Shown piece after piece: positions 31,714 through 35,716 of a stretch of 64,000 nt of DNA (positions are counted from its first letter, which is position 1; the number at the start of each line of letters is the position of its first letter). This DNA comes from Dermacoccus abyssi (GTDB lineage Bacteria; Actinomycetota; Actinomycetes; Actinomycetales; Dermatophilaceae). The DNA is taken from positions 1 through 64,000 of the forward strand of contig NZ_QWLM01000009.1 of the NCBI RefSeq assembly GCF_003515945.1. The letters run 5' to 3'. The position numbers were made by a program, and so were the translations under genes. The notes under the pieces are model-generated. The model searched no databases. It worked only from the letters and a program-made list of their open reading frames with translations, and was not told the origin of the DNA.

Positions 31714-33512
31714 ATGCGGTCCATGGAAGCAGTTCGGGGGGAAGCTGCGTCTCTGTGGGGTGACCAGGGCGAGCTGCGGTGGTCGATGGAACGACTCGCC
31801 GACGAGTCGCTCGATCGCGCCGGCGTCGAACTCGACCCACGCGGCTTCCTCATCGGTTTTCCCCTCGACGAGTCCGGTGCAGTCCTCATCGAACCCGAGC
31901 GCAACGCGTTCGACGTCGAACCGCTCGCCGGCCTCCTCGCTCGGGCCGACGCGCTGTTCGCGGAACGACGGCGCACCACCTGCCCCGCCTTCTGCCCCGA
32001 GGCGCGTTCCGTCCAAGCCGGAGCGCCCCACCCGGCGGACGAGGAGTGGCACCCGGAGCACTACCTCACCGCCCTGCTCGAAGGCTGTCGACGTCAGGTT
32101 CTCCTCGAAGCCCTCGACACCGCAGCGCGATTCGACGACCGCCGACTCTTCGTCGGGATGAGCGTCGTCGTCGACGACCACCGCGTCTTCCCCGTGCTTG
32201 CCGTGTCGAGCGAGCCGTGGGCCGAACTGCCGAAACTGTCGACCACGACGATCGACGGCTTCGCGGCCGCGGCCTGTTTTCCCGAAGCCGTCATCGACGA
32301 CGTCCTGCGCGCGGCCAGCCACGAACTCGACCGCAAGCACCCCGTCTCCCTCATCGGTATCGACGCCGGCGCCGTACTCCGTTCCGCAGCAGACACCTTC
32401 GTCAACGGATGCGCTTCGCGCGCCGGTCAGGAGTTCGCACTCGGCCTGCGTGACGCCCTCGACGCCGTGTCGGCACAGACCTACGAGGGGCGCGCCAGCC
32501 TCGGCACCCTCGTGCTCGCCCAACCCGGCCACGGGGCCGTTCGCTGCGATGTCGCGTTCGAGCACGAGGTGGCCGTGTCCGTGCCCCGCGCCTTCCGCAA
32601 GGCCCTCGAAATGACGGGCCCGGGCTTCGAGCTCCTGTGCGACGGGCGCAAGGTGTACGGCCTCGGCACCCTCGAAGACTCCTACGACCCGGCGGGCGAG
32701 CGCTGCTTCACCGTGCGTGTCGTCGGTAACGGCTCGTGGGAGTTGTGGCACGCGACGACGCCGTTCCTTCGCGTCGACAACGGCCAGCCCACGCTCCCGC
32801 GCGACCTCGTCGACGCCGACACGTTCGTGCACACCGTGCGGCGCGTCTTCCCCGAGGCCACCGACCAGCACGCGAACATCCTGTGGGACATGGCCCAGGC
32901 CTGCATCCGTCAGCAGCACGGCACGATGCTCGTCGTCCACCCCGATGCTCGCGCCGAGGGCGAACGCCTTCTCCCGCAGGCGTACACCGTCGAGCCGACC
33001 CGCCTCGGCCGAACGCGTTCCACGCCCTGACGAAGATCGACGGCGCGGTGCTCGTCAGCCCGGAGGGTCACTGCCACGCCGTCGGCGTCATTCTCGACGG
33101 CGCCGCCACGGGCACCGGCGACATCTCGCGCGGCGCTCGGTACAACTCGGCGATCCGCTACCTCGCGGGGCGCGGCAAGGGTTCGATGGTCATCATCGTG
33201 AGCGAGGACGGGCGCATCGACATCCTGCCGCAGCTGGCTCGTCGAATGCGCCGCTCGACGATAGAGCGTGTCGTCCAACAGCTCGTCAAGGCTGCGCACG
33301 AGGGGCACGACTACGAGAAGTTCGCGCGCCTCGACGCCCGCGCCACGCAGTTCGAGTTCTACCTCGACGCCGAGCAGTGCGAGGCCGTCAACGACGCACG
33401 CGAGACCGTCGAGCAGCGACGGTGGGCCGAGGAGCGCGTGCGCATGCAGGTCGTTCCCATCGCGCCGCACCCTGCGATGGACGACTCCTACTTCGTCACC
33501 CCGGAGCAGTAG
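31714..33512 (+). CDS. Sensor protein with C-terminal diadenylate-cyclase-like (DisA_N) domain; frameshifted
   Basis: After adding one base this is about 599 residues. Residues 1 to ~390 form an unrecognised soluble domain likely to be a sensor. The C-terminal ~150 residues align with diadenylate cyclases, which make c-di-AMP from ATP: QQHGTMLVV corresponds to the first strand, D443-G444-A445 in KIDGAVLVS to the catalytic DGA, RGARYNSAIRY (R476-Y477-N478) to the RHR region, and MVIIVSEDGRIDILPQ to the VVSEE strand. RHR has become RYN, so activity is uncertain. The given sequence breaks at about 33013-33017: one more C in CTCGGCC joins PTRLG to PNAFHALTKIDG. ATG 31723 is an alternative start. 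A K+ channel gene lies downstream, fitting c-di-AMP control of potassium. Confidence 0.78.
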
Positions 33513-33584
33513 CCCGTGAGCGAGCGCCCACCGCGAGGAACCTTCCCATCGGCACCGCGATGGAGGGCGGACCGTTCGACGCCG

Positions 33585-33590
33585 TACGCT
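33585..33590 (+). promoter_or_regulatory. -10 box for the DUF6394-type gene
   Basis: TACGCT lies seven bases before ATG 33598, so this gene and the channel may be transcribed separately from the DAC-like gene. Confidence 0.4.
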
Positions 33591-33597
33591 TTCACGT

Positions 33598-33975
33598 ATG
33601 AACCTCGAAAAAGTCGTCTTCGGCTTCTTCGTGCTGCTGGCCGCTACGATGAACTTCGGTTTCTTCATCGGCGACATGAGCGACCCGAAGCTGCACAACA
33701 TCAACGAGCTGTACGTGGCGATCTTCGTCAACCTCATCGCGCTCGTGCTCAAGTTCGGTGACCGCACGCAAATCGGCGCTGTCCACCTCGCCACGTCCCT
33801 CGTGGCTGTGCTCCAACTCGTCTCCGCGGCAGCTTTCTACGTTCTCGCCGGCGGATACGAGAACGACCCCGGCACCACCTCCAGCATCGTCTCGCTCTCC
33901 GGCGGCGCCCTGCTCGCGAACATCGTCAGCGTGGTGCTGCTCGTGTCCGAGACCATCTCCTACCGCCGACGCTGA
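33598..33975 (+). CDS. Small four-helix membrane protein, DUF6394-type
   Basis: The 125-residue protein has four hydrophobic helices (about residues 5-26, 38-56, 63-85 and 97-118) with a conserved-looking core: FGFFIGDMSDP, LVLKFGDRTQIGAVHLATSLV and SLSGGALLANIVSVVLLVSE. From memory this matches DUF6394, a family of unknown function often next to potassium channel genes; I could not run a search. It sits 13 bases upstream of a K+ channel gene, so it may be an accessory or regulatory subunit of that channel. Confidence 0.72.
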   Translation: MNLEKVVFGFFVLLAATMNFGFFIGDMSDPKLHNINELYVAIFVNLIALVLKFGDRTQIGAVHLATSLVAVLQLVSAAAFYVLAGGYENDPGTTSSIVSLSGGALLANIVSVVLLVSETISYRRR

Positions 33976-33988
33976 ATCCCTGCGCCCC

Positions 33989-35716
33989 ATGAGCGCGATG
34001 CTCGCCTTCTTCACCCGCCACAGCCACCGCCACCGCACCCGGCTGCGGCGGCCCGTGCGCATCCCCGACGAGGCACCGTCGACCGACGCGATCTTCATCG
34101 TCATCCGCCGGATGCGTTCGCCGCTCGTGTTCATCACGACGGTGTTCGCCATCTCCGTGCTGGGGCTGTCGATCATCCCGGGCAAGGACGCGAACGGAAA
34201 CGCGACGCACCTGTCGCCGTTCGAGGCGTTCTACTTCATCTCCTACACCGCCTCGACGATCGGCTTCGGCGAGATCGTGCCCTTCACCACCGCCCAACGG
34301 ATGTGGGTGACGGTCTGCATCTTCATGACGGTCGTCGGCTGGGCGTACGCCATCGGTACGTTGCTGTCGCTGCTTCAATCGGCGAGTTTCCAGGACGCCG
34401 TCGCGATGCAGCGCTTCCGGCGCAAGGTCAAGCGCATCCGCGAACCGTTCCTCATCGTCTGCGGGTACGGCCAGGCGGGCCGTCAGGTCTGCCGCGAACT
34501 CGACGAAGCCGGCCGCCGTTTCGTCGTCATCGACAGCCACGACGGGCGCGTCGAACGCATTGCCACGGACGAGTTGGAGAGCGACGTCCCCGCCCTCGAG
34601 GCCGACGCGAGCCTACCGAGCGTGCTCGGCATGGCGGGGCTCTCCAACCAGTACTGCGAAGGCGTGCTCGCCCTCACCGACGACGACACCGACAACCTCG
34701 CCATCGTCATGGCGACGACCCTGCTGCGCCCCGGCACGAGCGTCATCGCGCGATGCATGGACCGCGTCGTCGAGGAACGCATGGACGACTTCGCGCCGAA
34801 CGCCGTCATCAACCCGAGCGACCGCTACGGCGCCTACCTCGTCCTCGCGCTCCAGCGCCCCGCCACGTACAACCTCGTGAAGTGGCTCATGGACCCGCGC
34901 GACGACGCGATGCCCAAGCCGCTCCAGCCCAAGCCTGGCGGCTGCTGGGTCGTGTGCGCCGACGGCGAATTCGCCGAGGAGGTGACGAGCGATCTCGAAC
35001 GGGCCGGCATGAACGTCACCGTCGCCGACCCCAAGGATGGCCACCCCGATGTCTCGCGGGCCAACGGATTCGTCGTCGGAACGGACAACGACACGACCAA
35101 CCTCGCGCTCGCCGAGCACGCCAAGATCGCTCGCTCCGACCTCTTCGTCGCCGTCCGCCAGCAGTCGGACGCCCGCGCCTCGCTCGTGAGCGCGCTCGCC
35201 ATCGACTCCGTCTTCACGCCCACGGAACTCGTCGCCCAGGAGAGCCTCGCGCGCGTCGTCACGCCGCTGTTCTGGAGCTTCGTCGAGTACGCAGTCCAGC
35301 AGCCCAACGAGTTCGCCGAGGGGATCATCGCGCGCCTCACGGCGCACTGCGGCCATACCGGCAAGGAGCGGATGCTCGTCGACCTGTCGGCCCAGGGCTC
35401 ACCCGCACTGCACCGCTGGTTGCTCCACGACGAACTCACCGTCGGGCAGATCCTCAAGAGCTCCGACGGCCGCGACGAGCACCTCCCGCTCGTACCGCTC
35501 GTCCTCGTCCGCAACGGCGAGCACATCTTCGCTCCCGACGAGTCGACGACCGTGACGACCGACGACCACCTGCTCGTCGTCGGTCACCGCTCGGGGCTGG
35601 TCGCGCTGCACGAAACGCAGTACTCGGACGCTGCGGCGGAGTACATCGCGACCGGCGCCCACGTGCCGGAGACGTGGCTGTGGCGCAAGCTCAAGCGTCA
35701 CCGCCCCGCGGCCTGA
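33989..35716 (+). CDS. Two-helix potassium channel with two RCK (TrkA-N) domains
   Basis: The 575-residue protein has two membrane helices (residues ~44-64 and ~108-130) flanking a pore loop with selectivity filter T90-I91-G92-F93-G94. The first RCK domain starts FLIVCGYGQAGRQVCREL (Rossmann GxGxxG) and the second near residue 315 with GCWVVCADGEFAEEV. A C-terminal region with LVVGHRSGLVAL resembles a partial RCK_C-type fold. RCK domains gate K+ flux in response to nucleotides or ions, and c-di-AMP binds RCK_C domains in several bacteria. The preceding DAC-like and DUF6394-type genes suggest a functional unit. The gene overlaps the convergent acetyltransferase by 19 bases. Confidence 0.9.
   Translation: MSAMLAFFTRHSHRHRTRLRRPVRIPDEAPSTDAIFIVIRRMRSPLVFITTVFAISVLGLSIIPGKDANGNATHLSPFEAFYFISYTASTIGFGEIVPFTTAQRMWVTVCIFMTVVGWAYAIGTLLSLLQSASFQDAVAMQRFRRKVKRIREPFLIVCGYGQAGRQVCRELDEAGRRFVVIDSHDGRVERIATDELESDVPALEADASLPSVLGMAGLSNQYCEGVLALTDDDTDNLAIVMATTLLRPGTSVIARCMDRVVEERMDDFAPNAVINPSDRYGAYLVLALQRPATYNLVKWLMDPRDDAMPKPLQPKPGGCWVVCADGEFAEEVTSDLERAGMNVTVADPKDGHPDVSRANGFVVGTDNDTTNLALAEHAKIARSDLFVAVRQQSDARASLVSALAIDSVFTPTELVAQESLARVVTPLFWSFVEYAVQQPNEFAEGIIARLTAHCGHTGKERMLVDLSAQGSPALHRWLLHDELTVGQILKSSDGRDEHLPLVPLVLVRNGEHIFAPDESTTVTTDDHLLVVGHRSGLVALHETQYSDAAAEYIATGAHVPETWLWRKLKRHRPAA

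Follow-up and report, generated by a model that had tools for sequence, protein, structure and literature searches.

The closest described relative of the first gene of this locus is the third gene of DS-2, a validated Escherichia coli anti-phage system of three genes that encode a phospholipase, a cGAS-like enzyme and a diadenylate cyclase (DAC) (PMC13092281). The DAC is required in that system, as mutation of its predicted catalytic residues abolished defence, and CBASS adjoins 15 of 30 homologues of the DS-2 DAC (PMC13092281). In Actinobacteria, DisA has been termed the sole DAC protein (PMC10117811). The RCK_C domain mediates the action of c-di-AMP on CpeA of Streptomyces and on KhtT (PMC10117811). 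We analyzed three genes in a 64,000-nucleotide stretch of Dermacoccus abyssi DNA (the window), where a DisA_N-like protein, a small membrane protein and a K+ channel had been proposed to form a self-contained signal/channel cassette. The genes are co-directional, and the predicted gaps, 85 bases between gene 1 and the DUF6394 gene and 13 bases between the latter and the channel gene, agreed with our coordinates. The features of the locus are as follows.

31723..33006, forward strand: gene 1, first reading frame, encoding DACNG, DACNH and the first DAC strands (from relatives and Pfam)
31753..32403, forward strand: DACNG sensor domain (PF21752; Pfam, 142 bits)
32443..32754, forward strand: DACNH sensor domain (PF21750; Pfam, 99 bits, residues 241-344)
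33003..33012, forward strand: frameshift site of gene 1, within the DAC domain (from intact copies in relatives)
33006..33512, forward strand: gene 1, second frame, encoding the remaining DAC domain and a C-terminal helical region (from alignments)
33039-33047, forward strand: DGA motif of gene 1 (subfamily alignment)
33138-33146, forward strand: R-Y-N of gene 1, where RHR is expected (merged alignment with DisA)
33598..33975, forward strand: DUF6394 protein (PF19931), 125 amino acids, four predicted transmembrane (TM) segments (Pfam, hydropathy)
33989..35716, forward strand: K+ channel with a 2-TM pore (Ion_trans_2), a TIGFGE filter, two TrkA_N (RCK) stretches and a weak TrkA_C

The start of gene 1 is either 31723 or a further in-frame ATG upstream at 31714. 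The domains, fold, lesions, gene order and distribution that we observed point to a decaying defence-type DACNG-DACNH-DAC cyclase gene upstream of an independent operon of DUF6394 and the K+ channel, a reading that we consider likely.

Domain architecture and family of gene 1

The N-terminal ~390 residues of the gene 1 product had been described as an unrecognised sensor. Instead, the N-terminal ~345 residues correspond to two Pfam domains, DACNG (residues 11-227, E 2.7e-41) and DACNH (residues 241-344, E 1.3e-28), the N-terminal arrangement that marks the DS-2 DAC family. The top NCBIfam match was DS2_3_antiphage (NF053872), aligned over positions 10-428 with 289 bits, which is below the curated equivalog cut-off of 630 bits in a scan that had only the N-terminal part in the right frame. 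We found the E. coli DS-2 locus, and it carries a protein of the same architecture. Thus, like gene 1, the third DS-2 gene (NF053872, from the DefensePredictor study) combines DACNG, DACNH and DAC over its full length, and it shares the motifs DG[AT] and RGxR[YLF]N with the gene 1 subfamily. However, gene 1 differs from DS-2 in that no CBASS phospholipase or CD-NTase adjoins it, the gene is disrupted, and its score lies far below the equivalog cut-off. Judged by its domain composition, gene 1 belongs to a family of cyclases previously described in phage defence, and its homology to DS-2 (PMC13092281) suggests a defence role. The DS-2-type DAC family thereby gains actinobacterial members, which often are broken.

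Sequence profiles recognized the C-terminal part poorly. The Pfam DAC model did not match the joined gene 1 protein, an HMMER profile of the C-terminal domain found no DAC among PDB sequences, and HHalign comparison of the subfamily with DisA, both represented by shallow alignments, aligned the DGA stretch alone with 9.8% probability. Two intact relatives scored above the PF02457 cut-off (L019, 40.1 bits; L017, 28.8 bits). The C-terminal part of gene 1 is 61% identical to that of a further relative (L014), and an AlphaFold2 model of the intact domain of this relative had a mean pLDDT of 73.7. The best PDB matches of the model in Foldseek were all DACs (E 1.3e-6 to Mycobacterium tuberculosis DisA), and its VIA Z scores were 11.1 with DacM and 10.6 with DisA and CdaA, with DACs scoring 9-11 and the next unrelated fold 5.6. 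When a full-length model was compared with the PDB, the confident matches were DAC structures only, with no fold assignment for DACNG or DACNH. Because the fold comparison settled the question, we accepted a C-terminal DAC fold despite the weak sequence profiles; going by the modeled relative, the C-terminal part of gene 1 is a true DAC domain. The DAC fold anticipated by the original prediction was recovered in the structure prediction of this relative. The genome also encodes an intact DisA on another contig (C14), so that gene 1 represents, as proposed, a second protein of the diadenylate-cyclase type.

In the alignment with DisA, gene 1 retains the canonical DGA motif of diadenylate cyclases but not RHR, which is replaced by R-Y-N. 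Almost all members of the subfamily, among them the DS-2 protein of E. coli, show this replacement. The DAC fold (Z 9-11) and the DGA motif are therefore common to gene 1, DisA and CdaA/DacM, whereas gene 1 has R-Y-N in place of RHR and carries N-terminal sensors, not a C-terminal DNA-binding region or membrane helices. In an intact DACNG-DACNH-DAC protein, the N-terminal domains would sense a cue, possibly linked to phage, and would switch on a dimerising DAC domain, whose cyclic-dinucleotide product would then act on an effector encoded elsewhere or as another protein.

Disruption of gene 1

Gene 1 is not a single intact open reading frame. The first frame stops at 33028-33030, and, after a frameshift at ~33003-33012, the remaining protein is encoded in a different frame that ends at 33512. 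The break falls between the first DAC strands (GTMLVVHP) and the DGA strand; the DAC-type identity of the predicted DisA_N-like protein was upheld, but the gene is broken inside that very domain. The sole congener (G001) also carries a broken copy, at residue ~319 instead of ~428 as in the source genome. Programmed frameshifting was considered and ruled out, since the lesion sites of the two species do not coincide.

Among DACNG-positive members of the bacterial family, 6 of 14 copies were disrupted at differing places, by frameshifts in the source genome (G000), its congener, G802 and G832, by a stop codon in G883 and by a 5' truncation in G872. A relative outside the family (G168) has a stop near the start of its DACNG gene. 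The channel genes were disrupted in 0 of 13 cases, significantly less often than the 6 of 14 cyclase genes (Fisher p 0.016). Between the two species of the genus, dN/dS was ~0.2 for the DAC part, 0.11 for DUF6394 and 0.35 for the channel. Given this purifying selection on the DAC part, the lesions would have arisen recently, with sequencing errors as the less likely alternative, and the gene losses look recent. As read from the sequences, the disrupted gene most likely makes no active cyclase in the source genome and its congener.

A competing explanation is that the frameshift arose as an error of sequencing or assembly, in which case gene 1 would encode a functional, intact cyclase with no relation to the channel. 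The low dN/dS of the DAC part fits such an error, as does the site, a single-base change in G+C-rich sequence. However, no further frameshift was found in 43 aligned genes of the source genome (~14,000 amino acids), and independent frameshifts, stops or truncations disrupt the gene in the congener and four more relatives, and we therefore regard an error as unlikely. In the congener, the background was one candidate frameshift in 39 genes (~11,800 amino acids), so that such changes are rare in both assemblies.

DUF6394 and the potassium channel

The product of gene 2 matched Pfam DUF6394 (E 1.1e-32) and showed four hydrophobic segments in a hydropathy analysis. The TIGFGE filter, which fits the pattern T-I/V-G-F/Y-G, the Ion_trans_2 pore and two TrkA_N stretches identify gene 3 as a K+-selective 2-TM tandem-RCK channel, although by sequence it has no strong relative among solved structures and gave only weak matches to solved channels. 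These three features are shared with the tandem-RCK 2-TM K+ channels of the GsuK/MthK/BK type, from which gene 3 differs in that, across the sampled genomes, DUF6394 always accompanies it. A tandem-RCK channel gene directly followed DUF6394 in all 42 other genomes examined. DUF6394 and the tandem-RCK K+ channel thus form a strict and widely conserved two-gene unit, which apparently has not been described so far; DUF6394 was not mentioned in the literature that we searched. A plasmid search with DUF6394 returned nothing. From the constant linkage, the four-TM DUF6394 protein would most likely be an accessory subunit of the channel, which gives this domain a testable role.

Two DUF6394-linked channels (L105 and L111) carry the variant selectivity filters TVGYTE and TVGYSE, and their selectivity may differ. 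In one genome (G010; L105 5695-8714), DisA lies ~1.55 kb from the DUF6394-channel pair in divergent orientation. We took this proximity as coincidental, as it was absent from the other 41 loci, 30 of which were covered with a flank of only ~1.4 kb.

Relation between the cyclase and the channel

The three-gene order was found in only two genomes, the source genome and its congener, within a syntenic block, and unrelated genomes did not share it. Adjacency of the cyclase and the channel thus appears to be specific to the source genus. In nine further loci of the family and in nine other loci, the DAC gene had neither the channel nor DUF6394 nearby. Gene 1 has no adjoining CD-NTase and effector of the kind that defines DS-2 and CBASS, and a SMODS match was absent from the whole source genome. 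A SMODS CD-NTase was present in 2 of the 11 DACNG genomes tested and in none of the other 9; therefore, most of these actinobacteria, the source genome among them, have no CBASS partner. Some of our observations run counter to a decaying gene next to an independent operon: both species of the genus retain the gene order, DACNG and DUF6394 co-occur more often than at random in the family, the DAC part is under purifying selection, and most DACNG genomes have no CBASS partner.

The co-occurrence could reflect a long-range partnership in the family and in Propioniciclava-type genomes, in which the DACNG-DAC protein would act on the DUF6394 channel as its effector, perhaps in defence, from genes that are mostly unlinked, are joined in the source genus and are being lost in several lineages. 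In the family, DUF6394 was present in 12 of 14 DACNG genomes versus 43 of 174 others (p 8e-6, uncorrected) and, when counted by genus, which was the only correction made for descent, in 6 of 8 versus 13 of 45 (p 0.019). Both domains also occurred in two of three Propioniciclava-type genomes, and the lack of a CBASS CD-NTase in 9 of 11 genomes likewise fits a partnership. However, DUF6394 was absent from the DACNG genomes outside the family and the Propioniciclava group (G168, G220 and G251), and most DUF6394 genomes lack DACNG. The published c-di-AMP signature of RCK_C, (I/L)(I/L)X2DX1RX5N(I/L)(I/L) as quoted in PMC10117811, was found in none of 13 channel proteins, that is, in neither the channel of the window nor its 12 relatives, with strict or with relaxed residue classes. 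Taken together, we consider such a partnership improbable, at about the level of the error discussed above. A more detailed version of it seems marginally less probable still. In that version, in actinobacteria that mostly have no CBASS CD-NTases, the orphan DACNG-DACNH-DAC protein would use the unlinked DUF6394 and tandem-RCK channel as its effector in a response to phage or stress that works by nucleotide gating of a K+ channel, which would be costly and so repeatedly lost, with the two halves adjoining only in the source genus.

Like CpeAB of Streptomyces, KhtTU and KtrA, gene 3 encodes a K+ transport protein whose regulatory region is of the RCK/TrkA_C type, but the protein is a channel and not an antiporter, and the published dinucleotide signature is absent. 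The original proposal of a single operon, in which c-di-AMP made by gene 1 binds the RCK domains of the adjoining channel with DUF6394 as a helper, is in keeping with the common strand, the short gaps, the order kept in both species, the DAC fold and the action of c-di-AMP on CpeA and KhtT (PMC10117811), but it is very unlikely given that the order is absent outside the genus, the two genomes that have it carry cyclase genes with lesions at different sites, the DUF6394-channel pair stands on its own in 42 of 42 genomes, RHR is replaced, the RCK_C signature is lacking in 13 of 13 channels, and, in another genus of 168 genomes, DUF6394 occurred in 15 and DACNG in 1 with no overlap. The locus is probably not a cyclase-to-channel signalling cassette, which is a weak proposition, and lying next to a K+ channel does not turn this DAC into a K+ regulator. 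Overall, we retain the reading of a decaying defence-type cyclase gene beside an independent channel operon.

Outside the source genus, the neighbourhood of the DAC gene differed in the genera that we examined. No matches were obtained in phage records searched with a gene 1 relative, in viral contigs searched with the window protein alone or in plasmids searched with the window DNA. Relatives of gene 1 were present in CBASS or other defence settings, as on Citrobacter and Gluconobacter plasmids, where a patatin phospholipase and a CD-NTase adjoin, and on Priestia plasmids, where they lie near a nucleotidyltransferase or beside restriction-modification genes. One IMG/VR contig (L171 745-4073) carries a SMODS CD-NTase, the cyclic-dinucleotide receptor Cap15 and DACNG-DAC in a row, an arrangement that is a CBASS variant with a second cyclase. 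Elsewhere, the neighbours, mostly assigned by eye, were cation-efflux, Pup-proteasome, TPR-like or restriction genes. In one genus (g35; L008 6126-8302, L019 5547-9202 and L164), the DACNG-DAC gene lies among Pup-proteasome genes as assigned by eye, in L008 between pup and a PafA/Dop-like gene. In both species of another genus (g9; L007 8212-9249 and L160 7874-8911), the DACNG-DAC gene is separated by a few bases from a cation-efflux (CDF) gene downstream.
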